64,000 nucleotides of DNA. It comes from Erysipelotrichaceae bacterium (GTDB taxonomy: Bacteria; Bacillota_I; Bacilli_A; Erysipelotrichales; Erysipelotrichaceae). Location of the stretch: positions 62,001-126,000 of the forward strand of contig SVBJ01000002.1 in assembly GCA_015058955.1 (NCBI GenBank). The letters run 5' to 3'. Below, piece after piece: positions 24,608 through 59,993 of this stretch. Each line of letters begins with the position of its first letter. Within the stretch, counting starts at the first letter, position 1. Under the pieces are notes generated by a model. It saw only the letters and a list, made by a program, of their open reading frames with translations. It searched no databases and was not told the origin of the DNA. The position numbers and the translations under genes are program-made.

Positions 24608-25978
24608 ATGAAGAAAATCAGGTTTTTCCTCAGCCTGTGGGCTGGAAAGCTGGTACTGTGGTACTACATAAGAAAAGGAAGAGTCAATGATGACAGACCG
24701 GGAATGCGGTCAATGCGACTCTTTTTTGACTTTGTAAGGTATGTTGCCAAACCAAAGATCGTGGTTGCGGTAACAGGTACCAACGGAAAGACCTCAATAA
24801 CCAAGATAATTGCCGACATGTTTGAGGCTCAGGGATACAGCGTAGCATACAACAGCTGGGGAGCCAATGACAATGCCGGTTATGCCCGCCTGTTTTTAGG
24901 GGCAACTGATGTCTTCAACCGTACCACCAAGGATGTGGCGGTAGTGGAAATGGATGAGATCACCATTGCCTACATGCTGGAAATGGTAAAGCCTCAGTAC
25001 CTGATCATCAACAATCTGGCAACGGATTCACTGCACCGCAATGGAAATCCGGACTATGTTTCCCAGCGCATTATTGAAGGGTGCAATAAATACAGAGATA
25101 CGGTACTGATCGTCAATGGCGATGATCCGATCTGCTGCGGCATCGGAGAAAACAATAAGAGAGTGTTCTTTGGAGTAGCCGATCAGGGACGGGCAGAAGT
25201 AAAATATCTGACCAACGATTTTCCGGTCTGTCCTAAATGCGGGGGCACACCGGTATACAGATACAGAAATTACCGTCATTTCGGAGAATTCTACTGTCCG
25301 AAGTGCGGATACAGATCTCCTGAAAGAAGCGTCTTTGTTGAGGAAATCAGAGAGAACTCTCTGGTTGTCCGGGAAGGAAAGCAGAAAAACGAATACCCTG
25401 TTCTAAGTAATGCGCTGTTCAATGTATACAACGAAACGGCAGTCATAACTCTGTTCAGACAGCTGGGATATCAGCCTGAGCAGATAGCCGGTCTGCTGAA
25501 ACAGGCAAAATTACCGGAAAACCGCGACAGAACAGTAGAAGTAAACGGAGTACAGATCCATGACCTCTGCAGCAAGCGGCAGAATCCTACCGCCATGAGC
25601 ACGACCATGGAATATGCTGGCAGGGAGCCGGGTAATAAAGCAGTCATCATGTTATATGATGAACTGGTAAAGGAAGATTACCGCATTGAAGCAACCCCTT
25701 ATCTTTACAGCACGGACTATCAGTTCCTTAATGACGAATCCATTAAGCACATCATTGTGATTGGGCAGAGGTGCAGGGAACATAAGATAAGACTGCTGCT
25801 GGCAGGAGTTAAGCCTGAAAGAATTGCGGTTGCGGAAAGAATCGAAGAGATAGATCCTCTGATCAGTTTCGCTGATGTGGATAAGTACATCATTCTTCAT
25901 GATGTTACATATTCCATTGCGAACAGAGACCACATCATTGATGTCATCAGGGAAAACATTGCGGAAAGGGGTGCGTAA
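24608..25978 (+). CDS. MurT-like Mur ligase with zinc ribbon
   Basis: This 456-residue protein has the Mur ligase P-loop TGTNGKTS near residue 60 and a four-Cys zinc ribbon inserted in the middle domain (C208, C211, C230, C233), the hallmark of MurT. Known MurT amidates the alpha-carboxyl of D-Glu in lipid II using ammonia from GatD. This copy is divergent: the segment that usually resembles N-x-x-RDQ-x-DRYGE reads NNLATDSLHRNGN, and the C-terminal D-V-S-W-I-W-D region, which contributes to the GatD active site in Staphylococcus, is replaced. It may activate D-Glu but use a different amine. It is followed by its GatD-like partner after 1 base. Confidence 0.8.
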   Translation: MKKIRFFLSLWAGKLVLWYYIRKGRVNDDRPGMRSMRLFFDFVRYVAKPKIVVAVTGTNGKTSITKIIADMFEAQGYSVAYNSWGANDNAGYARLFLGATDVFNRTTKDVAVVEMDEITIAYMLEMVKPQYLIINNLATDSLHRNGNPDYVSQRIIEGCNKYRDTVLIVNGDDPICCGIGENNKRVFFGVADQGRAEVKYLTNDFPVCPKCGGTPVYRYRNYRHFGEFYCPKCGYRSPERSVFVEEIRENSLVVREGKQKNEYPVLSNALFNVYNETAVITLFRQLGYQPEQIAGLLKQAKLPENRDRTVEVNGVQIHDLCSKRQNPTAMSTTMEYAGREPGNKAVIMLYDELVKEDYRIEATPYLYSTDYQFLNDESIKHIIVIGQRCREHKIRLLLAGVKPERIAVAERIEEIDPLISFADVDKYIILHDVTYSIANRDHIIDVIRENIAERGA

Positions 25979-25979
25979 G

Positions 25980-26699
25980 ATGAAACGGGAAATTCTGTAT
26001 CCTGAACTGACCACCCTGTACGGTGACGGGGGCAACATGCTCCTGCTTAAGCAGTGCTGCAATGATGCCGTCTTCAGAGAAACCGGGCTGGAAGAAGTCC
26101 CGTGGTTTGTCAGTGAAGATGTCGATTTCATCTGCATCGGTTCCATGAGTGAACCAAAGCAGCTGCTGGTCCGGGAAAAACTGAAACCTTATAAGGAAAG
26201 AATCAGAGAACTGATTGAAAAGGGAACGGTGTTTCTGGTAACCGGCAATGCCATGGAACTGTTCGGTCAGTACATTGAAGACAGGAAGGAAAGAATGGAG
26301 ATGCTGGGTATCTTTGACTATCATGCCCAGCGCAATCTGGATAAAAGACTTAACTACATAGTCCTGGCACAGTATGAAAAACTGCCGGTAGTTGGGGTCA
26401 AGTCACAGTTTTCCCAGATCCATGGACTGGATAACCACCATTTCCTGAAGATGGTCAAGGGACTGGGTGATAATGAAGGCAGTGAATTTGAGGGAATTCA
26501 TTACCGTAACTTCTTTGGAACTTACTGTCTGGGACCTCTGCTGGTATATAATCCGCAGTTTACGAAACATCTGCTGGAATTATGCGGGCAGAAAGGCGAA
26601 ATAGTATTTGAAAAAGAGCTTGAAGAAGCATATTATGAAAGGCTGCGGAAGTACAGACATCCGGATTCACCGGTGGTACTTGGCCACGGCTTCATTTAA
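25980..26699 (+). CDS. GatD-like class I amidotransferase subunit without catalytic Cys and His
   Basis: The protein is 239 residues from ATG 25980, one base after the MurT-like stop; longer in-frame starts lie inside that gene. It aligns with GatD through TLYGDGGNMLLLKQ at the N-terminus and EGIHYRNFFGTY near the C-terminus. The nucleophile elbow, L-T-I-C-G-G-Y-Q-F-L-G in S. aureus GatD, reads L-V-T-G89-N-A-M-E-L-F-G, so Cys is Gly. The catalytic His of GTYLHGP is L184 in GTYCLGP. Glutamine hydrolysis is therefore not expected. C183 lies nearby but outside the elbow. The subunit may be structural or regulatory for the MurT-like ligase. Confidence 0.8.
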   Translation: MKREILYPELTTLYGDGGNMLLLKQCCNDAVFRETGLEEVPWFVSEDVDFICIGSMSEPKQLLVREKLKPYKERIRELIEKGTVFLVTGNAMELFGQYIEDRKERMEMLGIFDYHAQRNLDKRLNYIVLAQYEKLPVVGVKSQFSQIHGLDNHHFLKMVKGLGDNEGSEFEGIHYRNFFGTYCLGPLLVYNPQFTKHLLELCGQKGEIVFEKELEEAYYERLRKYRHPDSPVVLGHGFI

Positions 26700-38077: not shown

Positions 38078-40387
38078 ATGAGGAAAATGGTAAGAATTCT
38101 ACTGATACTGGCCACATGCTTATCAGCCATGATTACCAATCAGGCCGGTTTCATTGTGTCTGCGGAAGTGCTTCCTACTGACGGACGGCGGTATGCCGTA
38201 CTGGATGGGGAAGGAAAACTGCTTTTTGTCAGAAGCAGTGAAACTTATGAAAACAACACAGTCGGTACGGTTACTGACATATACGGGAACAGTTATACCG
38301 GAACGATATATTCAGACGTGGAGAACACCGAAACAATACCGTGGGCAGATAAGAGAAGCAGTATTGTAAGTGTTGAAGTGGCAGCTGATACAGTGATCAG
38401 ACCGCGGAACATGATGTGGTGGTTTGGCAACATGATCAATCTGACCTCATTCGAAGCAGAGGGCTTTGATACGGAAGACGTTACCAACATGAGCCATCTG
38501 TTCTATAACTGCCGCTCGCTGACTTTCCTGGATGTCAGTCATTTCAATACCGGAAAGCTGACGGTAGCCAGCAGTATGTTTGAAGGCTGCCGTTCTCTGA
38601 CGACGCTGAACGTTACAGGACTCAGTACGGCACATGTCTATGACATGATTGAAATGTTCAAGGACTGTGAAAGTCTGAAGACTCTGATCGTCAGCAGTTT
38701 CATTACTTCCAATGTCATTTCCATGAAGGGAATGTTTAACGGATGCAGGTCCTTGAGCGGACTTGATCTGTCGGGATTCTCTACCGTCAAGGTAACGGAC
38801 ATGAGTGAAATGTTCCGTAACTGTGAATCCCTTACCTCTCTTGACCTCAGTAAATTCAATACTGCCAGGGTTGAGGATACCAACGAAATGTTCAGAAACT
38901 GCAAGGCTCTGACTTCACTTAACCTCAGCAGTTTCAATACCGCAAAAGTCAGAAACATGGCTTCAATGTTCACCAACTGTTCCGCACTGACATCTCTTGA
39001 TCTCAGCAAGTTCAATACGGCAGTTGTTACCGACATGTCCGCCATGTTCTATGGCTGTAATTCCTTAAGTGATCTGAATCTAAGCAGTTTTGATACCTCC
39101 AATGTTGTTTCAATGGATGGCATCTTCGCCAACTGCAAGGCACTTAAGACGCTGGACATTGACCATTTCGCCACAGGCAAGCTGGAAAACATGGCCTTTG
39201 CGTTCTATGGATGTTCTGCTCTGGAAGAACTGCACATCGCCGGTTTCAATACTTCAAAGGTGACCGACATGAGCAGCCGGTTTACCGGTAATGACAGCCT
39301 GCTGGAAATCAGACTGTCAGAACAGTTTTCAAAGTGGTCAGATAACGCATATTTTCCGGAAGGTTACTGGAAGAACGGCCGTCTGATAAAGAGCGAACAG
39401 GAACTGTATGACAACTATACTTCCAATCTGCCTGACTGGGCCGGAACCTGGATCAAGACAGTGAAAAATGATTACATCAAGAGAGCGTTTGGAGCTAACA
39501 GATACAAGACTGCTCTGGCTGTAACTGATGTCTTCATGGAAGTTACCCAGAAGGAAAAGCTCAGTACGCTGATCATAGCCAGCGGTAACAGCTTCGCTGA
39601 TGCCTTAGCCGGCAGCTATCTGGCAGCAGTAAAGGAAGCTCCGATCATTCTGGTCAATGATACAAACCTCATCCGGGTAACTGCGTATGTCAGTGAAAGG
39701 ATGGATCCGGAAGGAATGATTTACATTCTGGGAGGAGGAACCGCCGTATCCTCTGAAATCAAGGATCAGTTTGAGGAAATAGCGAATGTAAAGAGACTCC
39801 AGGGTTCCAACAGGTACCTTACAAATCTGGAGATCCTGAAGGAAGCCGGAATGGATAAGGATGCGATCCTGGTCGGAACCGGTCTGAATTTCGCCGATTC
39901 ATTAAGTGCATCTGCCACAGGACTGCCGATTTTGCTGGTTAAAGATTCCCTTACTGATGAACAGAAGCGGTTTATGAGTGAAAACCGGGGAAAGAAGATC
40001 TACATTCTGGGCGGAACCAGTGCTGTAAGTTCAGCAGTTGAAAGACAGCTGAAGAATTACGGTGAAACCGAAAGACTTGAAGGAAGCAACCGTGTGGCCA
40101 CTTCCGTCAAGATTGCGGAAAAGTTCTTCCCTGATGCCATGGTGGCAGTTCTGGCTTACAGCCATGACTTCCCGGATGGCTTATGCGGAGGAGCACTGGC
40201 TTACCGGCTTGATGGTCCGGTACTGCTCACCAGAGCAGAGAACAAAGCCATCACTAAGAGCTACGTTAAGAACAGTTCACTTGGCAGCGCCGTAGTTACA
40301 GGCGGCATGACCAAACTGGATGATGCCCTGGTCAAGGAGATCATGGGTGTCTCTGATAACTATGTAATACGGTATTACTACCGATAG
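38078..40387 (+). CDS. Secreted BspA-like surface protein with 11 DUF285 repeats and cell-wall-binding-2 repeats
   Basis: This 769-residue protein begins with a signal peptide (hydrophobic core 5-27, predicted cut near residue 29). A cap module (about 36-124) begins YAVLDGEGKLLFVRSSE. Eleven DUF285 repeats of exactly 26 residues (78 bp each) run from 38450 to 39307, with pattern L-D-L-S-x-F-N-T, V-x-x-M, M-F-x-x-C-x-x-L. A tail ending in AGTW follows. From about residue 464 come three cell-wall-binding-2 repeats with F-A-D-A-L-A-G-S and GGTxAVS motifs. The gene lies between glycosyltransferase and Stealth genes, so it is likely co-expressed with the polymer it may bind. Confidence 0.9.
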   Translation: MRKMVRILLILATCLSAMITNQAGFIVSAEVLPTDGRRYAVLDGEGKLLFVRSSETYENNTVGTVTDIYGNSYTGTIYSDVENTETIPWADKRSSIVSVEVAADTVIRPRNMMWWFGNMINLTSFEAEGFDTEDVTNMSHLFYNCRSLTFLDVSHFNTGKLTVASSMFEGCRSLTTLNVTGLSTAHVYDMIEMFKDCESLKTLIVSSFITSNVISMKGMFNGCRSLSGLDLSGFSTVKVTDMSEMFRNCESLTSLDLSKFNTARVEDTNEMFRNCKALTSLNLSSFNTAKVRNMASMFTNCSALTSLDLSKFNTAVVTDMSAMFYGCNSLSDLNLSSFDTSNVVSMDGIFANCKALKTLDIDHFATGKLENMAFAFYGCSALEELHIAGFNTSKVTDMSSRFTGNDSLLEIRLSEQFSKWSDNAYFPEGYWKNGRLIKSEQELYDNYTSNLPDWAGTWIKTVKNDYIKRAFGANRYKTALAVTDVFMEVTQKEKLSTLIIASGNSFADALAGSYLAAVKEAPIILVNDTNLIRVTAYVSERMDPEGMIYILGGGTAVSSEIKDQFEEIANVKRLQGSNRYLTNLEILKEAGMDKDAILVGTGLNFADSLSASATGLPILLVKDSLTDEQKRFMSENRGKKIYILGGTSAVSSAVERQLKNYGETERLEGSNRVATSVKIAEKFFPDAMVAVLAYSHDFPDGLCGGALAYRLDGPVLLTRAENKAITKSYVKNSSLGSAVVTGGMTKLDDALVKEIMGVSDNYVIRYYYR
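38450..39307 (+). repeat. Eleven tandem 78-bp coding repeats (DUF285)
   Basis: Eleven in-frame units of 78 bp with no length variation encode 26-residue leucine-rich-like repeats. Central units (5-9) are most alike, consistent with recent expansion by unequal recombination. Confidence 0.88.
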
Positions 40388-47541: not shown

Positions 47542-49932
47542 ATGACACAATTCTTGAAAAGAATCGCCATCGTGACTCTGGCTGTTTTAATGTGCCTGAC
47601 AGGATTATCTGTTAAAGCACAGGCAGAAGATACAGCGATTGCAACCGCACTTTATATGGAAGATAACATTGTCCCTTTGAATGGTACGATATGGATCGAT
47701 TTCTGGCTTGATCCATGGGACAAGGACGTCAGCAGAGAGTTAAAATGGGAAAGCGCTGACGAAAGCATTGCGACAGTTGATGACAGAGGAAATGTAACGG
47801 GTCATAAACCAGGCGATGTAAAAATCTATGCAACAACAACAGACGGGTCAAATATTAAGGCAGAATGTAATGTCTGGGTTTTGAATGAAGAAAGTGCAGC
47901 CTATGCTGTTTTGATGGATAACGGTGATTTCGTATTTTTGAGATCTTTTGAGGAACCGGCTAATTACGGAGACGGACAGGAAATAAAAGATATTAAAGGA
48001 AATACTTATAAAGGCAAGGTTTTCAGTTACATTGAAAGAAAATATGCAAATGAATGGACGTATGCTGAAGGTATAAATGATAAGATAAAAAAAGCATATG
48101 TAGCTGAAGGATCAACAATTTATCTTCTGGATATGCAGAATTTCTTTTATAACTGTGTAAACATGACAGAAGTTAACTTCAATGGTTTCAATACTGAAAG
48201 AGTAGAGCGCTTTGATCATATGTTTGCTAGATGCGGATCACTTGAAAAGATTGATATGAGCGGTGTTTCAATGAAGTCTGTTGAAGGCTACTATAATATG
48301 TTCGGCGAATGTGACAGTTTAACAGAAATTATATTAGGAACAGAACTTAATGCCTGGGCATTAATGGAATTGCCGGCCGGAAAATGGACAAGAGGTACAG
48401 AGAGTTATCTGGCATATGACATTGCCATAGAGTATTCTTCTCATCCAGAAGATCTGGCAGGAACATGGACAAGAAAACTGGTTCCGGCAACAGCCATAAA
48501 ATTTGAGTATGATGAATATGAAGTATGGTGTCCTAACTATGGAACAGAGCTGAAGGTTATTTTTACTCCTGAAGATGCAACATCTCCTTTGGAATGGAAA
48601 AGTTCAGATGAAACTATTGCAAAAGCATATTCATCAGGAGAGGTTGTAGGATACAAGCCTGGAACAGTAACCATAACTGTCAGAACAACAGATGGTACAA
48701 ATCTGAGTGCAACCTGTACTGTTAATGTTGTACCTAGACCAGAGCCTGTTTATCTGCAACGGTTCAAGTTCACGAAAAAAGAATATGAGGTACCGGTAAA
48801 TAGTCATCTTGTACTTGAATATGAGGTTACACCGGAAGGAGCAGAAATAGAGGATCTGTTCTGGGAAAGCTCTGATGAGTCCATTGCTGAAGTCTATGGA
48901 GGAGTAGTATATCCTTATAACATGGGAACGGTAACAATTACAGGAAGAAATGGTGATGGAACTATAAAAGATACCTGTACAGTAACAATTACTGAAGCGG
49001 TGGAAAAATACTATGCATACAGAGTGTCAGGTTCTAACAGATACAAAACAAGTCTGGAGATAGCTACCGTGTTCTGTGAATGGTGGGATGAAACAAAAGT
49101 TGAAAATATCATTCTTGCCTTCGGTGGCAATTTTGCAGATGCTTTGGCTGGCAGCTACCTGGCAGCAGTAAAGAAAGCTCCAATTGTCATAATCAATGAC
49201 CGGAATATTGATCTGGTTAAGAAACACGTGCAAAAATATCTGGACGAGAAGGGAACAATCTATATTCTGGGTGGTACAGCTGCTGTCTCTGATAAAGTAG
49301 AAAAGGAAATGAAAAAAATTACCAAGAATGTCAAGAGACTGGCTGGAAGTAACAGATATGGCACTAACCTCGCTATTCTTAATGAAGCAGGTATGAATTC
49401 TGATACTATTCTGGTAGCAACAGGTGGAAACTTCGCTGACTCATTAAGTGCTTCAGCAACAGGATATCCAATGCTTCTGGTAAAAGATGCCTTAACTGCT
49501 GAACAGAAAGCCTTCTTAAAGAAGAACAGCGATAAGAAGATCTACATTCTTGGCGGAACAAACGCAGTTAGCAGTACTGTGGAAAAAGAACTGAATGCAT
49601 ATGGTAAAGTACGTAGACTTGCTGGTGCCTCAAGATTTGAAACATCTGTACTGATCGCTGAGAAATTCTTTGAAAATCCTTATGGAGCAGTAGTTGCTTA
49701 CAGTAATGATTATCCTGATGGCTTATGTGGTGGTCCATTAGGATACAAGGAAGGAATTCCACTGTTACTGACTAGATCAGATAAGCTTGATGCCGCTCGG
49801 AAATATATAAAGGATAATGGTATTATGATGCTTGATGTCCTTGGCGGTGAAGCCAGACTGACAAACAAAGACATTAAGAAGCTGTTTGGCAATAAAGAAG
49901 TTAATTATTATCACGAAGAATACAAAGATTAA
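47542..49932 (+). CDS. Secreted surface protein: three Big2 domains, short DUF285 block, three cell-wall-binding-2 repeats
   Basis: This 796-residue protein has a signal peptide with a predicted cut after AQA near residue 28. Domain order: Big2 Ig-like domain (about 30-115); cap module beginning YAVLMDNGDFVFLRS (about 120-200); about three DUF285 repeats (200-275); AGTW tail near 312; two more Big2 domains (about 318-400 and 407-485, each with SSDE-x-IA and C-T-V or C-T-V-T-I ends); and three cell-wall-binding-2 repeats (490-796). The function is probably adhesion or cell-surface scaffold. The coding sequence looks more A+T-rich than the polysaccharide genes before it. Confidence 0.9.
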   Translation: MTQFLKRIAIVTLAVLMCLTGLSVKAQAEDTAIATALYMEDNIVPLNGTIWIDFWLDPWDKDVSRELKWESADESIATVDDRGNVTGHKPGDVKIYATTTDGSNIKAECNVWVLNEESAAYAVLMDNGDFVFLRSFEEPANYGDGQEIKDIKGNTYKGKVFSYIERKYANEWTYAEGINDKIKKAYVAEGSTIYLLDMQNFFYNCVNMTEVNFNGFNTERVERFDHMFARCGSLEKIDMSGVSMKSVEGYYNMFGECDSLTEIILGTELNAWALMELPAGKWTRGTESYLAYDIAIEYSSHPEDLAGTWTRKLVPATAIKFEYDEYEVWCPNYGTELKVIFTPEDATSPLEWKSSDETIAKAYSSGEVVGYKPGTVTITVRTTDGTNLSATCTVNVVPRPEPVYLQRFKFTKKEYEVPVNSHLVLEYEVTPEGAEIEDLFWESSDESIAEVYGGVVYPYNMGTVTITGRNGDGTIKDTCTVTITEAVEKYYAYRVSGSNRYKTSLEIATVFCEWWDETKVENIILAFGGNFADALAGSYLAAVKKAPIVIINDRNIDLVKKHVQKYLDEKGTIYILGGTAAVSDKVEKEMKKITKNVKRLAGSNRYGTNLAILNEAGMNSDTILVATGGNFADSLSASATGYPMLLVKDALTAEQKAFLKKNSDKKIYILGGTNAVSSTVEKELNAYGKVRRLAGASRFETSVLIAEKFFENPYGAVVAYSNDYPDGLCGGPLGYKEGIPLLLTRSDKLDAARKYIKDNGIMMLDVLGGEARLTNKDIKKLFGNKEVNYYHEEYKD

Positions 49933-50099: not shown

Positions 50100-53000
50100 A
50101 TGGAAATATCTAGAAAGCTGAAACAGCTAATGAAGGTTTTGTTAGTTGTTTTCATGTCTTTAACAATGATTATTCCTGATGGATTGGTAAAAGCAGAAAA
50201 TAGTCTTAGTACTGACAAGACTGAATACGAAGCAGGTGAACCAATTGTGGTAACAGCTTCAACAGATTTATCAGGTGCTTGGGTTGGATTGTATGATGAG
50301 AACACATCTATACATCTTCAATCTGTTGCCTGGTACTATGTCAGTGATTATCCGGGAGTAGCTGAAAATCTGTTGGCTCATCCGAATAATAAAGATGGTT
50401 TTCCTGTTGATAATCTGCCTGCCGGGAATTATAGAGTTGAATTACTTTATAGTAATAATGGTATTTATACACAAATAGTAGATCCAATAGCTATAACTAT
50501 TGTGTCTAATGTTCCTGAAGAAATACATGTTGATAAGGAAGATGACGGATTTAAGTATCATCAGTATAAGTATTCTGAAAAGGTACTTGTAACAGCAACA
50601 AGTCCAGATCCAGCAGCAACCGTAAGATTATGTGATGAAAGCCCATCAGCTGATTATGGATATGATAATGGTTCATATGTAAGCTATAAGTTAACAGACT
50701 ATGAAAATCCAGTAGATATTCTCGCATTAGCAATAGAAAAAGGTGTAAAGCCTGAAGCGGGAAAACAGTATAGGATTTATCTTGTCAATGGTGCTGGTGA
50801 TTGGGTAACGCAGGCAAGATGTGAACTGTTGGTTACTTATGATGATGAAAATGTTAAATGGGCATTATCTGAAGATAAGACATCAGCAACTATCACTTTT
50901 AAACGTGTTGATGATGAAACAAAAACCGAAACATTTGATGCTGTTTTAGGTGAAAAGACAGTTAAGAAGGCAGCTACATGTACTGAAACTGGAACAGATG
51001 AATACTCTGTATCATTCCAGTTTGGCGAAGAGCCATTAGTAACTGTAAATGATACCTTAGCATTTACAGGTACAGTTGAAGATGAAGTTGCTGCATTAGG
51101 TCATGCATGGGGTGAATGGGAAGTTATTACCCCGGCTACTGAAGAAAATCCGGGATTAGAAAGAAGAGTATGTCGGAACGATCCTAATCACATCGAGGAA
51201 AGAGAAATACCTGTATTAACACATGTCCATTCACTGACTCATACTGAAGCAAAAGCAGCAACATGTACAGAACGGGGAAATAATGAATATTATGTTTGTT
51301 CCGGCTGTGGCAAATACTTTAGTGATGCAGAAGCAACTCACGAATTAAATGCAGAGGATGTAATTTTACGGCCGTTGGGTCACAACACTGGCAATTGGGT
51401 TTGTGAAAATGGCAAGCATTATAAAGTATGTGAACGCTGTGGAGAAAAAGTAGATGAAGCAGATTGTGAATATGAAAGCGTAATTAAAGATAATACGGTT
51501 ACTTTTACATGTAAGGTTTGTGGCAACAGCTATAATGTTGAATTGGTTGAAACTGATAAGAATGTTTATGAATATGAAGAGCCAATCAATGTAACAATTA
51601 ATGGTTATGACTGTGCAACAGGATACGTATGGGTTGGTTTATATAGCAAAGATGCAACTCCTGCAGGAACAAACCCTGCTATCTATTGGTATGATAACAG
51701 TAATTATGATTTAACGAAGGCTGTAGATATTAAGAAAACAGATAACTCCAGCGGAAAAATGATAGATTATGAAACGGGTGGAGAATACGACGTCGTATTA
51801 ATGTATCAGTCAGCTGATGGGAATTATTACAATGTTGTAGGAAGAAAGACTGTTACGATCAATCCAAGTACAGTAAAAGATAATATTGTAGTTGACAAGA
51901 ACGATGATGGATTTGAATATCATAACTACAAGTATTCTGAGAAAGTACTTGTAACAGCAACAAGCCCAAATCCAAAAGCATCTGTAAGGCTTTGTGATAA
52001 AAATCCTAGTGATTCACATGGATATGATAATGGATATTATGTAAGTTATAATCTGTCAGATTATGATGAGCCGGTTGATATTCTCGCATTAGCGCTCGAA
52101 GAAGGCGTTAAGCCAGAACCTGGAAAACAGTACAGATTATACTTAATCAGCCCTGTAGAATCAAATACAAACAACTGGGTAATGCAGGCAAAAGTTGAAC
52201 TTTTGGTTACTTATTATGACGATGAAGAACATGTTGAATGGAAATTATCAGAAGATAAGTCAACAGCAACTATTACATTACCAAGAGTTGATGATGATAC
52301 AAAGAAGGTAACCTTTGACGCAGTTGTTGGTCAGAAAACCAATAAAAAGGCTGCAACATGTACAGAAACAGGAATTGATAGTTATGCCGTCTCCTTTGAA
52401 TTCACAGATGATAACAGAGTTGTTACAGTAAATGACACTGAAAAGTTTACTGGAAATGTCGATGTTGAAACAGATGCATTGGGTCATGAATGGGGCAAAT
52501 GGCATACTGATCCAAATGATCCAACCAAGGAAATAAGAGAATGTAGTCGTTGTGGTGCTACTGAAACAAGAGATTATGTCCCTTGTGATCACCAGTTCCC
52601 ATTAAATCACATTGAAGCTAAAGACCCTACATGTACTGAACCAGGTAATATTGAGTATTGGACTTGTTCAAAATGTGGCCGATTCTTCTCTGATGCTGAG
52701 GCAAAGAATGAAATTGATGAAGCTAATACAGTAGTAAAGGCTTTAGGTCATAATTACAGTAATAATTGGACTTTCAACGAAGAAAAGCATAATCATTACA
52801 AAGAATGCTCACGTTGTCATGACAGAATTGAAGAAGCATGTACGTTTGAAAACAAAATCAGCAATGGTGTTGTTACCCATACCTGTTCAGTCTGCGGTGG
52901 CAGTTATGAAGAAAAGTTCTTATGGACTGACAAGAAGGAATACAAACAGTATGAGCCAATCATGGTATATGTAGATCTTTCTGTAGTAGCTGATTACGAA

Positions 53001-54821
53001 GGTCTGGATTTAGCGAACTCATGGGTATCTATGTATCCTGCTGGTGAAGTACCTAGAGCAGATATGTCAATTAGATGGCATTATATTAGTACAACACCTA
53101 GTCCGTTTGACATGTTGGCTACCTTGTATATCAATGGTGAAGGAGGATCTGGAACAACAAACGGCAGAGATGGATATTTAACTACTGCTGGAGATTATGA
53201 TATCTATCTGTTAGCTGATGGTGGTTATGATAAGAGAATATCCTACATAACAATTACAATAACAGAGGAAACAATTGCTGCAAGTGAGATTAAATTTGAG
53301 TTCAACGGCAAGGCTCAGGAAATGGAACAGAAGAATGAGTTTGTTCTGCCGATTGAAACTATGAATTTTAAAGTTTCAGTTGAAGAACCATATGGTTCAT
53401 GGGTAGGTGTTTACAAAGCAGAATACGAAAAAGATTTTGACTTTGCATCAATTTCTTCATACAAATGGTGGTATATCAGAGATATCAATGATACCCTTGT
53501 TGATTTGAAGGATGTTTGTGGTGAAGCCGGTAAGTATACTCTTGTAGTATTTGGAAGCGGCGGACACAGTGACATTAGAAACCTGATTTACATTGAAGTA
53601 ACAAAAGAAATCGTTGAAGAAAAGATAACAATAGAACCAACATGTACCAGTGCTGGCAGTAAGCATGTCAAGTATTCTGATAATACAGAAGAAGATCTGC
53701 CAATTCCTGCATTAGGCCATGAATGGGGTGAATTCAAGTTTGATGGTGAAGCAGCTAAGACTCATACCAAGGAATGCTCACGCTGCCATGAAAAGGTAAC
53801 TGAAGAGTGCACATTCACTTCAGAAGAAAAAGACGGAATCATCACTTATACGTGCGAAGTATGCGGTGGTCAGTATACTTATGAAAAGACAGTTGCTGAT
53901 GAACCTGTATACAGAGCTTCTGGTCTTAACAGGTACTTTACAGCTATCCAGGCTGCTGATGTATTCATGCAGAAGACCGGCAAGGAAAAGCTTGATACAG
54001 TAGTATTAGCTTGCGGCACTAATTTCGCTGATGCCTTGGCAGGCTCATATCTGGCAGCAGTTAAGGATGCTCCTATCCTGTTAATTGATGATAACGAAAA
54101 AGCTGTAACAGTTGAGAACTACATCAAGGAACACATGGTTGAGGGTGGATTAGTATACATTCTTGGCGGTGATAAAGCAGTAGCGCCTAAGTTTGAAAAT
54201 GATCTGAAGAAGGCTGGGTTAACAGTCAAGAGATTAAAGGGCGACAACAGATATGGAACTAACCTTGAAATTCTGAAAGAAGCCGGCATTGAGGGTGATA
54301 CAATTCTGGTAAGTGTTGGCAGCAACTATGCTGACAGCTTAAGTGCATCTGCAACAGGATTACCTGTACTGTTAGTTAAGGATGCTCTGACAAAGGAACA
54401 GAAGGACTTCTTAAGCAACTACAGCGGCAAGAAGATCTACATCCTTGGTGGAACCAGTGCTGTTAACAGAACAGTTGAAGGCGAAATGGGCGAGTATGGT
54501 ACAGTCAAGCGTATTCAGGGTGATAACAGATATGAAACATCAACGAAGATTGCTGAGCAGTTCTTCAAGGATGCTGATACGATTCTGCTGGCTGTTGGCG
54601 ATAATTTCCCTGATGGATTATGCGGAGGTGCATTAGCTTATCAGTTACATGCTCCTGTAGTATTAGTCAAGGATGGCAGAGCTGATTATGCCAAGAAGTT
54701 CGTCAAGAACAACGGTATTGAAAAAGCTGTTGTACTCGGCGGCGAAAATGCCCTGAAGAAGGCATTGGTTAACGAAATCTTAGGACGTGATCCTAAGGCT
54801 GATATCCCTGCTTATCAGTAA
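50100..54821 (+). CDS. Giant secreted protein: repeated Ig-like modules, Cys-rich ribbons and three cell-wall-binding-2 repeats
   Basis: This 1573-residue protein starts with a signal peptide (hydrophobic 10-28). It alternates WVGLY-type Ig-like modules (about 38-145, 486-594, 940-1058 and 1063-1170) with a second module type (144-247 and 597-706) beginning V-D-K-x-D-D-G-F. Cys-rich blocks (about 287-480, 750-939 and 1178-1262) carry C-T-E-x-G, Y-x-C-S-x-C-G and LGHxWG motifs like those in many clostridial surface proteins. Three cell-wall-binding-2 repeats end it (1270-1573). No enzymatic motif is visible. A role as a long stalk or adhesin is inferred. Confidence 0.87.
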   Translation: MEISRKLKQLMKVLLVVFMSLTMIIPDGLVKAENSLSTDKTEYEAGEPIVVTASTDLSGAWVGLYDENTSIHLQSVAWYYVSDYPGVAENLLAHPNNKDGFPVDNLPAGNYRVELLYSNNGIYTQIVDPIAITIVSNVPEEIHVDKEDDGFKYHQYKYSEKVLVTATSPDPAATVRLCDESPSADYGYDNGSYVSYKLTDYENPVDILALAIEKGVKPEAGKQYRIYLVNGAGDWVTQARCELLVTYDDENVKWALSEDKTSATITFKRVDDETKTETFDAVLGEKTVKKAATCTETGTDEYSVSFQFGEEPLVTVNDTLAFTGTVEDEVAALGHAWGEWEVITPATEENPGLERRVCRNDPNHIEEREIPVLTHVHSLTHTEAKAATCTERGNNEYYVCSGCGKYFSDAEATHELNAEDVILRPLGHNTGNWVCENGKHYKVCERCGEKVDEADCEYESVIKDNTVTFTCKVCGNSYNVELVETDKNVYEYEEPINVTINGYDCATGYVWVGLYSKDATPAGTNPAIYWYDNSNYDLTKAVDIKKTDNSSGKMIDYETGGEYDVVLMYQSADGNYYNVVGRKTVTINPSTVKDNIVVDKNDDGFEYHNYKYSEKVLVTATSPNPKASVRLCDKNPSDSHGYDNGYYVSYNLSDYDEPVDILALALEEGVKPEPGKQYRLYLISPVESNTNNWVMQAKVELLVTYYDDEEHVEWKLSEDKSTATITLPRVDDDTKKVTFDAVVGQKTNKKAATCTETGIDSYAVSFEFTDDNRVVTVNDTEKFTGNVDVETDALGHEWGKWHTDPNDPTKEIRECSRCGATETRDYVPCDHQFPLNHIEAKDPTCTEPGNIEYWTCSKCGRFFSDAEAKNEIDEANTVVKALGHNYSNNWTFNEEKHNHYKECSRCHDRIEEACTFENKISNGVVTHTCSVCGGSYEEKFLWTDKKEYKQYEPIMVYVDLSVVADYEGLDLANSWVSMYPAGEVPRADMSIRWHYISTTPSPFDMLATLYINGEGGSGTTNGRDGYLTTAGDYDIYLLADGGYDKRISYITITITEETIAASEIKFEFNGKAQEMEQKNEFVLPIETMNFKVSVEEPYGSWVGVYKAEYEKDFDFASISSYKWWYIRDINDTLVDLKDVCGEAGKYTLVVFGSGGHSDIRNLIYIEVTKEIVEEKITIEPTCTSAGSKHVKYSDNTEEDLPIPALGHEWGEFKFDGEAAKTHTKECSRCHEKVTEECTFTSEEKDGIITYTCEVCGGQYTYEKTVADEPVYRASGLNRYFTAIQAADVFMQKTGKEKLDTVVLACGTNFADALAGSYLAAVKDAPILLIDDNEKAVTVENYIKEHMVEGGLVYILGGDKAVAPKFENDLKKAGLTVKRLKGDNRYGTNLEILKEAGIEGDTILVSVGSNYADSLSASATGLPVLLVKDALTKEQKDFLSNYSGKKIYILGGTSAVNRTVEGEMGEYGTVKRIQGDNRYETSTKIAEQFFKDADTILLAVGDNFPDGLCGGALAYQLHAPVVLVKDGRADYAKKFVKNNGIEKAVVLGGENALKKALVNEILGRDPKADIPAYQ
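50520..50850 (+). repeat. Direct repeat, copy 1 of a 110-residue module
   Basis: The DNA here is closely similar to 51885-52220: long stretches such as that around 50570-50616 match 51931-51977 with few differences, and synonymous positions are also conserved. This indicates a fairly recent intragenic duplication. Confidence 0.8.
51885..52220 (+). repeat. Direct repeat, copy 2 of a 110-residue module
   Basis: This is the second copy of the module at 50520-50850. It retains the opening D-K-x-D-D-G-F and the DILALA block. A small insertion near its end encodes extra Ser/Asn residues. Confidence 0.8.
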
Positions 54822-54965: not shown

Positions 54966-57900
54966 ATGAAAGTACAATTTAAAAATGTGTTCATTGCAGC
55001 TATTGCTATTCTGAGTTGCTTTGTTCTTTCATTTGGCGCATTTGATAAAATGCGGGCTAATGACATTGAGAACTATGCAGTAGAAACAGCAGCAATCAGC
55101 GCTGACCACTCCATGCTGAATCCTGAAAGCATTGCTTACGGGAAGACAAGTGCAGGTGATGATGTAACAATCAGAACCTTCAATACTTCACGGGACCTGG
55201 ACCCGGGAATAACTGTTTCCGTAACAAAGAGTAAGGTAATCGTACAGGTTAATGGCGTGGGATCAGGCGGAACAGCCAATCTGTACAGCTATGATCCTAA
55301 CGACTATCATCCGAAGGATACCTTAAGAGGATTAAGTACCGGTAATGGTTACAGCGCTACCGATATCGGTGAATATAAGCTTGGTTCAAACGCTTCGTTT
55401 GAGTTCAACCGCTATGTTCACGGCAGCGGTTATGATAATCTGTACCGCAAGTTCTATATTGTCAAGGACGGCAATATCGTTGCCGGCCCTGTCTATGCAT
55501 CAGAAATTGAAGCATACAGAGACGTCAAGCCTTTTGAGACCAATACAAAGAAGGGTCTTATCTGCGAAGACTTCAGTACCATTAATACCGCTAAGGAAAT
55601 GGGCATTGGCAGAACAGTTATCAACTGTGACCTGGGTTCATTGATCCTTGCCAACGAGGATGCAAACGGTAATCCTATTGATAACAGCAAGAGACCTAAT
55701 ACTGTTTCATTCGAATCAAACGGTGAAACTTTCTATTTTGATACTGAATGGTTAAGCCTTCAGGACCAGCTGACGATTCCTTTCTCAAAGGCAGGAATCA
55801 ACGTTACTTTCGTAGTAATCGTATGGCAGCAGACGACTGTTGGCAGTAAGGAATATCCTGAATCATTAAGATATGACACAGGTGGAACCGATACCGTAAC
55901 ATTAGGTGTCAATACCGGTAATCCATTAGGTGCAAAATATGTTATCGCAGCTATGGAATTCCTGGCTGAAAGATATTCAAAGTCTCCTGAAACGGGTCTG
56001 GTTGACCGTTGGGTAATCGCTAACGAAATCGACTATGCTTATGACTGGTTCCTGATTCAGTCCAGAGCAAAGGGTTCTGACGGCAAGTATCACAAGTATG
56101 ATTTCAACATCTTCATGGAAGAATTTGCCCGTTACTTCAGACTGTCCAACGCAGCAGTTCAGAAATATAACAAGAACAATAAGGCATACATCTCTCTGAC
56201 TCATAACTGGGCAGAAAGCTGTCTGGATTCATACGGTGAAGACCCTAATACTTCAAAGAGATTCTTTGCCTGGGCACCTCTTGATATCCTTGAATGGATG
56301 AAGAAGTATGATGCACCACGCGGTGACTTCAACTGGGGTATTACCGTTCACCCATATCCAATCGGAACTACTTCCAGCAATCCATGTGTCACTGACTTAC
56401 ATGCTGACAGACTGAGTCCTAAGTGGAAATCAATCAACGGTAACTATAAGACATCTCCATGGATCACGGCTGCTAACCTTGAACTTTATCAGCAGTATTT
56501 CGATCTGCCTGAAAACAAGTACAAGGGAACTGAAATGAGAAATGTCATCCTGACAGAAACCAGTATCTGTAACAAGGTCAAGGGAACTGTTTCGGATGCA
56601 GAATACGAAGAATCAATCAATGAACAGGCTGCAACAATTGCGATGTACTATTACAGAGCAGCCATGCTGCCATGCATTGATGAAGTTGACTACTTTGAGG
56701 AGAATGACCAGCCTGGTTCATATGCCTTAGGTCTGATTGCTCATGACGGAACCAAGAAGCCTTCATGGACTATCTGGAAATATGTTGATACTGAACTCAG
56801 CTTCGAATATGCCAACAGATACCTGAAGTACATTTGCGAAGAACAGTTCAAGAATGCTACAAGCTACAGAGAATTCATGGACGTTGTTACTGCAGAATCA
56901 GGATTCAACTGGGATGCATACTGGGATGAAGCCAAGATCATGACCAGACCGATAACCGGTGGAGAATCTCTGGATCCGGCAATCCGGACAGATAAGGATT
57001 CATATGCAGGCAACGAACCGATTCTGGTAACTGCCAGCGGTACTGACGGCAACAGAGTAGGCTTATTCAAGAAGTCAGATGATGTAAATGCTGTTGAACC
57101 TATCTATGTTTATACTCTTGGCTTAACAACCAATGGTGTAAAGGCAGGTAATGGTGCTCAGTGTGATATTCTGGCTTATGGTGATATTTCAGCATCACGT
57201 TCTGCAGATCAGAATCTGCCGGCTGGTGATTATAAAGTTGTCTTATTAAATGGCAAGAATGATAAGGTCAAGGAATTCAAGATCACATCTGCTAATAATT
57301 TCGGCAGTGAAGAGTACTCATTATCAGTAGCTAAGAATACATTTGCTTATGGTGAACCGGTATTCGTAAGTGCTACAGGTCCGAACAACGGAAGCTGGGT
57401 TGGTATCTATGGTGAAGATCAGACTCCACAGCAGGTTACATCAATCTTCTGGTATTACGTAAACGACGGAACTCTGTTATCAGGAAAACCGGTAGCAATC
57501 CAGAATCAGCGTCATGAAAGAGATTCTCTTACTCCTGGTAACTATAAGATCATTCTGTTCAACGATGGTAATTACAGCGTTAATCAGACTGTTCATATCA
57601 CTGTTGAAGAAGGAACAATCGGTGATCTAAAGAGCATAAGATACACACTCAACAACAATACAGACGGATTTGCTAATGGTATTGTCTCAGTTAACAGAGG
57701 CGATTCAGGCGCAACTGACTGTGTAATGTTCTGGGCTGATGCAAACGGAAAGCCATTGGAAGGATATGATTCCTTACAGATGTTCAAACTGACTGACGTT
57801 GTTACAGACCATAAGATGGTTACTCATACCTTCATTCCTGAAGGCGCAAAGAAGCTGATTGCTTATGGATCCAATGGCAGTGCATTATCAGCCAATTATG

Positions 57901-59993
57901 TTAGTGTTGATTTACCGGACAGCAGCACATATGCAGTTCCAGATGACTACATTATGGAATTCCAGATCATGAGTGACGTTCATGTTACTACTCCAGAGGG
58001 AGCAACAGGTGAAGTTACTCTGTCCAATCAGCACTTCAAACAGATGCTTGAAGACATCAAGCATAACAGCCCTGACAGCCAGGGTATGTTCATCAATGGT
58101 GATATTGCCAATACAGGCAGTGAAGAAGAATTCAAGATGGTTTACAACATGTACATGAATTCCGTAAATGCCGGTGACGGTACATTACCGAAGATTCACA
58201 TGTCCATTGGTAACCATGACTGGATGAAGGGAAACCCTAGCAAGCAGTTCCAGAGATATGTAAGAATCTTCAACGATGCTGTTGAGCAGCCTGAAGAAGT
58301 TTACTACGATGAAGTAGTCAACGGTTATCATTTCGTCTATTTGGGCGGTGAACAGCCGGGCTTACATGCAATTCTGAGTCAGAAACAGCTTGACTGGTTT
58401 GATAACTTAATGGCTGAAATTACTGAAGAAGATCCTGACAAGCCGGTATTTGTATTCATCCATCAGTCATTCTATAACACTGTATCAGGCTCATTACCTG
58501 GTGAAGGATGGAATGGTGTTGATGATGAAACCAAGTTAATGAACATCATGGTCAAGTATGATCAGATCATCCTGTTCAACGGACACAGCCATTGGCACAT
58601 GAACTCAATTGCCAACATGTTTGCCGGTGATGAGAACCATCCGGTAGCATTCAATACATCTGCCGGTGGTTATCTGTGGAACGGTTATGATGTCATTTCC
58701 GGTGTATATCTGGAAGGATCACAGGGTTATTACGTAAGAGTTTATGATGATAAGGTTATCTTCATGGGACGTAACTTTGACAAAGGTAACTGGATCCCTT
58801 CAGCATTGTATATAGTTGAAAAGCCGGTAGCCAGCGGTGCATCAAGAGACATTTCACTGTTACTGAACGGTGAAAGCCAGAACATCTATGATGGTGCCCG
58901 GAGCGGTGTTGACTATGTATCAAGCAATACAGGTGTTGTCATCATCAAGGAAGACGGTACATTGGTTCCTATGTCTGTAGGTACAGCTGATGTATTCGCA
59001 ACAGCTCCTGCAACTGATACAACAGTTGTTGCCAGAAGCAAGTTCAAGGTTTCAGTCATCAACTCCAACCTGTTCCGTATCTTCGGTGACAACAGATACA
59101 AGACATCATTACGGTTATCTGATGCTTATAAGGCACAGATTGATAAGGCAAAGTTTGACAATGTCATCGTTGCCAGCGGTGTAAACTTCGCTGATGCCTT
59201 AGCAGGAAGCTATCTGACAGCCAAAAAGAGCGCTCCGATCCTGATCGTTAATGATGCAAACATTGCCAATGTTACAGCATACATCAAGGAAAACGTTCAT
59301 AAGAACGGTACAGTTTACATCCTTGGCGGTAACCGGGCTGTAAGTTCCAAGATGGAGAGCGGCTTAGGAAGCTACAATGTCAAGAGACTTGCCGGTAACA
59401 ACCGTTATGCAACTAACCTGCAGATCCTTGATGAAGCTGATGTCTGGGAAGACGATATTCTGATCTGTACCGGCAATAACTTCGCCGACAGTTTAAGTGC
59501 ATCTGCATCAGGCAAAGCCATCATGCTGGTTAAGGAACAGTTAACTGAAGACCAGCTGACCTTCATCAAGGGCCACAGATATAACAAGTACTACATCCTT
59601 GGCGGTGACAAGGCTGTAACAAAGGCAGTTGAAAACGAAATCAATAAGATCGTCAAGACTGAGCGTATTGCAGGTGCAAGCAGATATGAGACTTCAACAA
59701 TGATTGCGGAAGCATTCTTCGAGAATCCTGATACTGCAGTATTCGCCTTTGCTAACAACTTCCCAGATGGCTTATGTGCAGGTCCATTGGCTTATGGCTT
59801 GAATGCACCGGTCATCTTAACGGCAACCGGCAGAACAGATGCAGCTGTTGAGTACATCAAGAATGCCAAGGTAGTCAAGGGTGTTGTCTGTGGCGGTTCC
59901 GGATTGATTTCAAACAGCGATATCAGAAAGATCTATGATCTGGATGACAAGATTTCAATCACTGACTGGAGTCAGGGAAAACTGTTTGATTAA
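54966..59993 (+). CDS. Giant secreted enzyme: GH-like (DUF5722-type) domain fused to metallophosphoesterase, with cell-wall-binding-2 repeats
   Basis: This 1675-residue protein has a signal peptide. Residues about 40-660 resemble DUF5722, a TIM-barrel glycoside-hydrolase-like family; WVIANE354 and ILTE531 fit the acid/base and nucleophile of clan GH-A. Two WVGLY-type Ig modules follow (about 675-770 and 778-880). A calcineurin-like phosphoesterase spans about 995-1290, with all metal ligands visible: D1004, H1006, D1046, N1083, H1166, H1207 and H1209. A short Big2-like domain and three cell-wall-binding-2 repeats (1370-1675) end it. Its target may be a phosphate-bearing glycan, perhaps the local polymer or a host glycan, as an inference. 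Confidence 0.85.
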   Translation: MKVQFKNVFIAAIAILSCFVLSFGAFDKMRANDIENYAVETAAISADHSMLNPESIAYGKTSAGDDVTIRTFNTSRDLDPGITVSVTKSKVIVQVNGVGSGGTANLYSYDPNDYHPKDTLRGLSTGNGYSATDIGEYKLGSNASFEFNRYVHGSGYDNLYRKFYIVKDGNIVAGPVYASEIEAYRDVKPFETNTKKGLICEDFSTINTAKEMGIGRTVINCDLGSLILANEDANGNPIDNSKRPNTVSFESNGETFYFDTEWLSLQDQLTIPFSKAGINVTFVVIVWQQTTVGSKEYPESLRYDTGGTDTVTLGVNTGNPLGAKYVIAAMEFLAERYSKSPETGLVDRWVIANEIDYAYDWFLIQSRAKGSDGKYHKYDFNIFMEEFARYFRLSNAAVQKYNKNNKAYISLTHNWAESCLDSYGEDPNTSKRFFAWAPLDILEWMKKYDAPRGDFNWGITVHPYPIGTTSSNPCVTDLHADRLSPKWKSINGNYKTSPWITAANLELYQQYFDLPENKYKGTEMRNVILTETSICNKVKGTVSDAEYEESINEQAATIAMYYYRAAMLPCIDEVDYFEENDQPGSYALGLIAHDGTKKPSWTIWKYVDTELSFEYANRYLKYICEEQFKNATSYREFMDVVTAESGFNWDAYWDEAKIMTRPITGGESLDPAIRTDKDSYAGNEPILVTASGTDGNRVGLFKKSDDVNAVEPIYVYTLGLTTNGVKAGNGAQCDILAYGDISASRSADQNLPAGDYKVVLLNGKNDKVKEFKITSANNFGSEEYSLSVAKNTFAYGEPVFVSATGPNNGSWVGIYGEDQTPQQVTSIFWYYVNDGTLLSGKPVAIQNQRHERDSLTPGNYKIILFNDGNYSVNQTVHITVEEGTIGDLKSIRYTLNNNTDGFANGIVSVNRGDSGATDCVMFWADANGKPLEGYDSLQMFKLTDVVTDHKMVTHTFIPEGAKKLIAYGSNGSALSANYVSVDLPDSSTYAVPDDYIMEFQIMSDVHVTTPEGATGEVTLSNQHFKQMLEDIKHNSPDSQGMFINGDIANTGSEEEFKMVYNMYMNSVNAGDGTLPKIHMSIGNHDWMKGNPSKQFQRYVRIFNDAVEQPEEVYYDEVVNGYHFVYLGGEQPGLHAILSQKQLDWFDNLMAEITEEDPDKPVFVFIHQSFYNTVSGSLPGEGWNGVDDETKLMNIMVKYDQIILFNGHSHWHMNSIANMFAGDENHPVAFNTSAGGYLWNGYDVISGVYLEGSQGYYVRVYDDKVIFMGRNFDKGNWIPSALYIVEKPVASGASRDISLLLNGESQNIYDGARSGVDYVSSNTGVVIIKEDGTLVPMSVGTADVFATAPATDTTVVARSKFKVSVINSNLFRIFGDNRYKTSLRLSDAYKAQIDKAKFDNVIVASGVNFADALAGSYLTAKKSAPILIVNDANIANVTAYIKENVHKNGTVYILGGNRAVSSKMESGLGSYNVKRLAGNNRYATNLQILDEADVWEDDILICTGNNFADSLSASASGKAIMLVKEQLTEDQLTFIKGHRYNKYYILGGDKAVTKAVENEINKIVKTERIAGASRYETSTMIAEAFFENPDTAVFAFANNFPDGLCAGPLAYGLNAPVILTATGRTDAAVEYIKNAKVVKGVVCGGSGLISNSDIRKIYDLDDKISITDWSQGKLFD

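Follow-up and report, generated by a model that had tools for sequence, protein, structure and literature searches.

The window, as we call the whole stretch of 64,000 nucleotides that was analysed, carries a MurT/GatD-like gene pair from a clade, present in some gut bacteria, in which the ligase half looks intact but GatD has lost its catalytic Cys and His and, judging from its residues, is not a Cys-His glutaminase as known. What the pair joins to a cell wall precursor is probably not ammonia derived from glutamine. We prefer, tentatively and at slightly less than an even chance, to read it as a glutamine-independent relative of MurT/GatD, an ATP-dependent ligase that would join a precursor carboxyl to an amine not coming from GatD, with GatD as a structural subunit.

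The window, with a GC content of 43%, belongs to contig C1; the genome comprises 1.78 Mb in 37 contigs. The features of the pair are collected in Table 1. The MurT-like protein matched the Pfam families MurT_C (3.6e-15) and Mur_ligase_M (6.7e-11) as well as solved MurT chains of the PDB (1e-30 to 1e-35), and the GatD-like protein matched Pfam GATase_3 (2.1e-9) and S. aureus GatD (1.7e-19). The FemAB domain, PF02388, was absent from the pair, which matches other families. The mechanical open reading frame of gatD begins at 25875, while the homologous start is the ATG at 25980, one base after the murT stop codon. The pair is about 25% identical to S. aureus MurT/GatD, and the NCBIfam equivalog cut-offs were not reached (131.8 vs. 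800 bits for MurT; 76.7 vs. 450 and 67.3 vs. 400 bits for GatD). Since pairs of this kind score nearest to isoglutaminyl synthase models, annotation by the nearest model would probably assign them a wrong function.

Table 1. Position of the MurT/GatD-like pair and of its diagnostic residues in the window.
Feature	Position	Strand	Basis
MurT-like Mur ligase, partner of the GatD lacking Cys-His, 456 aa	24608..25978	+	Pfam, PDB MurT chains, AF2
P-loop GTNGKT, residues 57-62, intact	24776..24793	+	alignment
Loop TDSLHRNGNPD, altered active-site/interface loop (intact MurT: RDQxDRxGExx)	25022..25054	+	class-specific columns D137, E141 (S. aureus MurT)
Cys4 zinc ribbon, Cys208/211/230/233, intact	25229..25306	+	alignment and column counts
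KRQNP loop, with two residues more than the KNP loop of intact MurT; spacing as in MurD SKATNP	25574..25588	+	
Ala362 at the third triad residue position (S. aureus MurT Asp349)	25691..25693	+	alignment
GatD-like subunit without Cys-His pair, 239 aa	25980..26699	+	GATase_3, S. aureus GatD match, AF2
Gly89 (codon GGC) at the nucleophile Cys position, inside TGNAME	26244..26246	+	alignment
Leu184 (codon CTG) at the catalytic His position, inside CLGP	26529..26531	+	alignment

A sequence-only reading had placed Gly89 and Leu184 at the Cys and His positions of a GatD with an intact frame and its fold motifs kept, next to a MurT with P-loop and four zinc Cys retained and with altered RDQxDRYGE and DVSW segments. 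Alignment with S. aureus GatD confirmed both substitutions (Gly89 corresponds to Cys94, Leu184 to His189), and the AF2 model of the subunit (mean pLDDT 94.6) has an ordinary GatD fold. The MurT claims held as well: the GTNGKT P-loop and Cys208/211/230/233 are in place, RDQxDRYGE is replaced by TDSLHRNGNPD, and D(V/T)SW aligns with ATPY. In S. aureus, MurT Asp349 is the residue that completes the GatD catalytic triad (PMC6113224). The MurT-like model has a mean pLDDT of 90.0, and the top PDB matches of the two models were MurT and GatD, respectively, of S. aureus and streptococci.

Of the 117 genomes of the GTDB family that were searched for MurT_C, 79 had a match; further loci came from Clostridia metagenome genomes and from a second Bacilli family. 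Removal of duplicates left 116 distinct MurT/GatD pairs, 46 lacking the catalytic residues (hereafter, Cys-less pairs) and 70 intact; the class-specific column analysis used 50 and 88 rows, respectively, with some genes present twice. The nucleophile Cys is replaced by Gly in 46/46 Cys-less pairs and is present in 70/70 intact ones; the catalytic His is likewise lost in all of the former and present in all of the latter, and the equivalent of MurT Asp349 is retained in 14 of the 46. Cys-less pairs occur in Erysipelotrichaceae, in the second Bacilli family and in Clostridia metagenome genomes, and within the family survey the two kinds of pair were never seen together in one genome. A GatD gene lay beside every MurT gene of this survey except one (L072). 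GatD was also not found alongside the MurT genes of L105, L107 and L109 (two of them titled Gastranaerophilales), whose MurT catalytic motifs look intact.

Several genomes carry two or three diverged pairs, with three in G062 and G082 and two in the window's genome. The second pair of the latter, on contig C5, has Gly at the Cys, Asn at the His and Glu at the D349 position and differs from the window pair in its loops; no intact MurT/GatD pair was found in this genome.

The sequence-only reading had proposed a family tree of these proteins. In two MurT trees (88 and 61 sequences; quick, unrooted searches without bootstraps) MurT of the Cys-less pairs formed one side of a branch with an SH-aLRT support of 99. 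The Cys-less state is that of a clade and not a stray mutation. Its likely origin is a loss of Cys-His, since Cys-His glutaminases are general in the superfamily and intact pairs are found across many phyla. Relative to the orthologues of the genus mate G020, dN/dS was 0.08 for the window MurT and 0.11 for the window GatD; values for Cys-less MurT and GatD ranged from 0.04 to 0.25, with 0.07 for MutS, and are rough, several dS exceeding 1. The Cys-less pairs are under purifying selection, and pseudogene decay was rejected because of the dN/dS values and of conservation.

As can be seen from the class-specific columns, the change in GatD extends over the glutaminase site (G60, D63, C94, G95, G96, Y97, Q98, E147, H149 and H189 in S. 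aureus numbering). Cys-less GatD has an invariant Gly and a new conserved motif, TGN[AS]x[ED], from which it follows that the site is evidently kept and is not drifting. In MurT, the P-loop Lys and the acidic residues E108, D110 and E111 (S. aureus numbering) are invariant in both groups, the Lys being present in all Cys-less rows that cover the P-loop. Three places in MurT are class-specific, namely loop 135-143, an AADG stretch that precedes D349, and the KNP loop. In the first of these D137 is lost and E141 becomes His or Asn, such that RDQxDRxGE of intact MurT reads RDxxxRNxH in the Cys-less clade. We considered this His as a returned Mg-binding His of Mur ligases and dropped the idea, the residue being at E141 and not at Q135. 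In S. pneumoniae MurT the loop lies at the GatD interface and at the ammonia gate as well, and replacing Asp139 or Glu143 by alanine has minor effects (PMC6085368); given this role and these effects, the loop change may only reflect the loss of ammonia transfer. The Cys-less clade has also lost the AADG stretch, which in S. aureus is associated with binding of the muropeptide (PMC6113224).

The KNP loop is longer by two residues and reads KxxNP, as judged by a pattern count and by aligning its profile with that of intact MurT, and it aligns without a gap with SKATNP of MurD. Residues Lys319 and Thr321 of MurD belong to this motif. Lys319 approaches the nucleotide and the substrate (PMC4652230), and Thr321 is able to form a bond with D-Glu mimetics (PMC3527612). 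By analogy, Cys-less MurT may use its KxxNP loop as MurD does.

The function that we propose builds on experiments with the S. aureus enzyme, in which neither MurT alone nor GatD alone amidated lipid II with any nitrogen donor, whereas the MurT/GatD-C94G complex lost the use of glutamine and kept NH3-dependent amidation of lipid II at pH 8.5 (PMC3266927). A structural role of GatD is thus established in a relative, and would explain why a GatD without catalytic residues is retained. In the Cys-less pairs the MurT half would activate a carboxyl with ATP, most likely the D-Glu α-carboxyl of the peptidoglycan precursor, and join it to an amine from a source other than GatD, with an amino acid or another primary amine being the most likely; the GatD half would hydrolyze no glutamine and would be kept as an obligatory structural subunit. 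We infer that the pair is an active ligase; homology and, in some loci, the gene neighborhood point to the D-Glu α-carboxyl as acceptor, and the loops and duplications suggest an amino acid or another primary amine as the second substrate. Preference for an amine other than ammonia is suggested by multiple diverged pairs with different loops, by TGN[AS]x[ED] and by KxxNP; none of these grounds is decisive. A broader version, in which this MurT clade is widespread and turned from ammonia to amino acids or other amines, with a structural GatD, to build D-Glu branches, partly in bacteria without FemABX, duplicated pairs adding different residues, we regard as unlikely.

The surroundings of the pairs vary. 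The window pair lies between mutS with a small membrane protein gene and an exopolysaccharide cluster (EpsG), with no wall genes beside it; the genus mate locus L065 also has mutS upstream and other surface-polysaccharide genes downstream. The second pair of the window's genome is preceded by a MurJ-like flippase gene and followed by murC and a PBP gene, both of the latter read from sequence, the order in L049 is flippase, sugar-transfer-associated ATP-grasp, murT and gatD, and in L059 the pair follows apparent MraY and MurD genes (also read from sequence). A wall context of Cys-less pairs therefore recurs but is not universal. The ATP-grasp gene was seen beside Cys-less pairs in three genera (L049:7271-8293, L050:1490-2539, L060:5845-6861 and L063:1578-2594); PF14397 was tested in three of the four proteins.

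FemABX (PF02388) had no match anywhere in the window's genome, and DAP epimerase was not found there. Two MurE paralogues are encoded a few genes apart on contig C21 of this genome (L245:4108-5622 and L245:7619-9211) and also in genus mate G020 (L246); their third-residue recognition motifs are SDSR and GHLR, vs. DDPR in most relatives. The missing FemABX and DAP epimerase, together with the MurE motifs, hint at an unusual stem peptide. Strong FemABX matches were present in 12 of 26 genomes with Cys-less pairs and in 23 of 26 with intact ones (Fisher p 0.0025, kinship ignored). A clean replacement of FemABX by the Cys-less pair was rejected, as several genera with such pairs have FemABX.

Erysipelothrix rhusiopathiae and Holdemania filiformis have type B1δ peptidoglycan (PMC4062643), and Erysipelothrix lies in the GTDB family of the window's genome. 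Genus g52 is Erysipelothrix, because both published Erysipelothrix 16S primer sites were found at the expected distance in 6/8 genomes tested (MO102 exact, MO101 with one or two mismatches). Its genomes gave no MurT_C match, the Cys-less MurT profile retrieved generic Mur ligases only, and GatD had no match among the five genomes listed. Erysipelothrix genomes (e.g., L241 and L242) were also seen to be without FemABX and to have the MurE motif HDNR. Genus g30, with genomes of 3.7-3.9 Mb and a GC content of about 49-56% in the stretches read, is probably Holdemania, as judged by size and GC alone; MurT was not found in it, and it has FemAB genes.

Several other explanations have to be weighed against a glutamine-independent ligase using an amino acid or similar amine. 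The pair could be a free-ammonia amidase that makes D-isoglutamine from the NH3 of an ammonia-rich gut, the glutaminase residues and the gate having decayed together. The activity of the C94G complex at pH 8.5 means that ammonia needs no new chemistry, and the GatD and MurT gate changes are all expected if the glutaminase alone was lost; at pH 7.5, however, neither the S. aureus wild type nor C94G used NH3 (PMC3266927), and simple amidation needs neither a strongly conserved new GatD motif nor two additional residues in the KNP loop nor two or three diverged pairs per genome. We consider this amidase somewhat unlikely, though a serious contender. That GatD hydrolyzes glutamine after all by means of a different nucleophile, or that its state is an annotation or assembly artefact, is hardly credible. 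The overall fold of GatD is intact, but the glutamine-site residues are gone together with the Cys, and the identical state in dozens of independent genomes speaks against an artefact. A Cys-His pair elsewhere in the subunit, named by the sequence-only reading as a finding that would overturn it, was looked for in the alignment columns and the AF2 model and not found: the 50 Cys-less rows contain no conserved Cys column, which led us to reject an alternative nucleophile, and their commonest His column is filled in 22.

The acceptor and the role in the wall may also be seen differently. The sequence-only reading had suggested that the pair attaches another amine or free ammonia to D-Glu, possibly as the cross-bridge ligase of type B peptidoglycan. 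The first part is sensible given the lost Cys-His, the kept frame and the kept ligase machinery; the tie to type B was not borne out. As a special case of our preferred explanation, the pair would attach the first amino acid of the bridge to the D-Glu α-carboxyl, the carboxyl fitting by homology and the FemABX, DAP epimerase and MurE findings in the window's genome being in favor. Yet the pair is missing from B1δ Erysipelothrix and from the genus that is probably Holdemania. Members of the same family thus build type B walls without it, and a general correlation was rejected. None of the genomes with a Cys-less pair was traceable to a species whose wall type is known, and for these lineages the link is unsupported rather than refuted; we consider a type B ligase quite unlikely. 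An acceptor other than peptidoglycan, such as a carboxylated polymer or a lipid-linked precursor of the adjoining exopolysaccharide cluster, would agree with EpsG and the other genes next to the window pair, with the loss of AADG and with the sugar-transfer ATP-grasp beside four pairs, but the exopolysaccharide neighborhood is not kept across the clade and other pairs lie by murC, a PBP gene, a flippase gene or apparent mraY-murD, which makes this reading very unlikely.

Compared with known systems, the window pair shares with the MurT/GatD isoglutaminyl synthases of S. aureus, S. pneumoniae and S. pyogenes (PDB 6gs2, 6fqb and 9sq9) the two-gene arrangement, the folds, the P-loop, the acidic Mg residues and the zinc ribbon; it differs from them by the absence of Cys94, His189 and most glutamine-site residues and by its altered loop 137-141 and KNP loop. 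Like GatD-C94G of S. aureus (PMC3266927), the clade has Gly for Cys and keeps GatD as a subunit, but the former is a single laboratory mutation, whereas in the natural clade the entire catalytic site and two loops of MurT have changed together. MurD has the same KxxNP spacing in its C-terminal domain loop, but it has an N-terminal domain and neither a GatD partner nor a zinc ribbon, and it has serines in place of the two acidic residues that MurT retains (PMC6085368). Archaeal MurT-like proteins (PMC11915815) are likewise relatives of MurT that have no active glutaminase at their side; there, however, no GatD homologue is found, whereas here GatD is conserved and predicted to be inactive. FemABX aminoacyl transferases, which add amino acids to the stem peptide, may overlap in role, but their fold and tRNA-dependent chemistry are unrelated. 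No description of a GatD without Cys was found among the open-access papers searched, which is weak evidence of novelty.

S. pneumoniae cannot do without amidation of D-Glu in its wall precursor (PMC6085368), and S. aureus becomes more susceptible to methicillin when this amidation is reduced (PMC6113224). From Bacillaceae murT/gatD is nearly absent (PMC6085368). With the glutaminase lost in every member and the ligase site remodelled, the natural clade described here allows a direct test of which amine such an enzyme can use. If that amine is an amino acid, the pairs would provide a cytoplasmic route to D-Glu branches without a need for FemABX.

Two minor observations can be added. At L069:4292-6393 a Cys-less pair is encoded in reversed order, with gatD before murT. 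Downstream of the exopolysaccharide cluster the window encodes four large secreted proteins (38078-40387, 47542-49932, 50100-54821 and 54966-59993), whose C-terminal repeats resemble, by eye, cell-wall-binding repeat 2.
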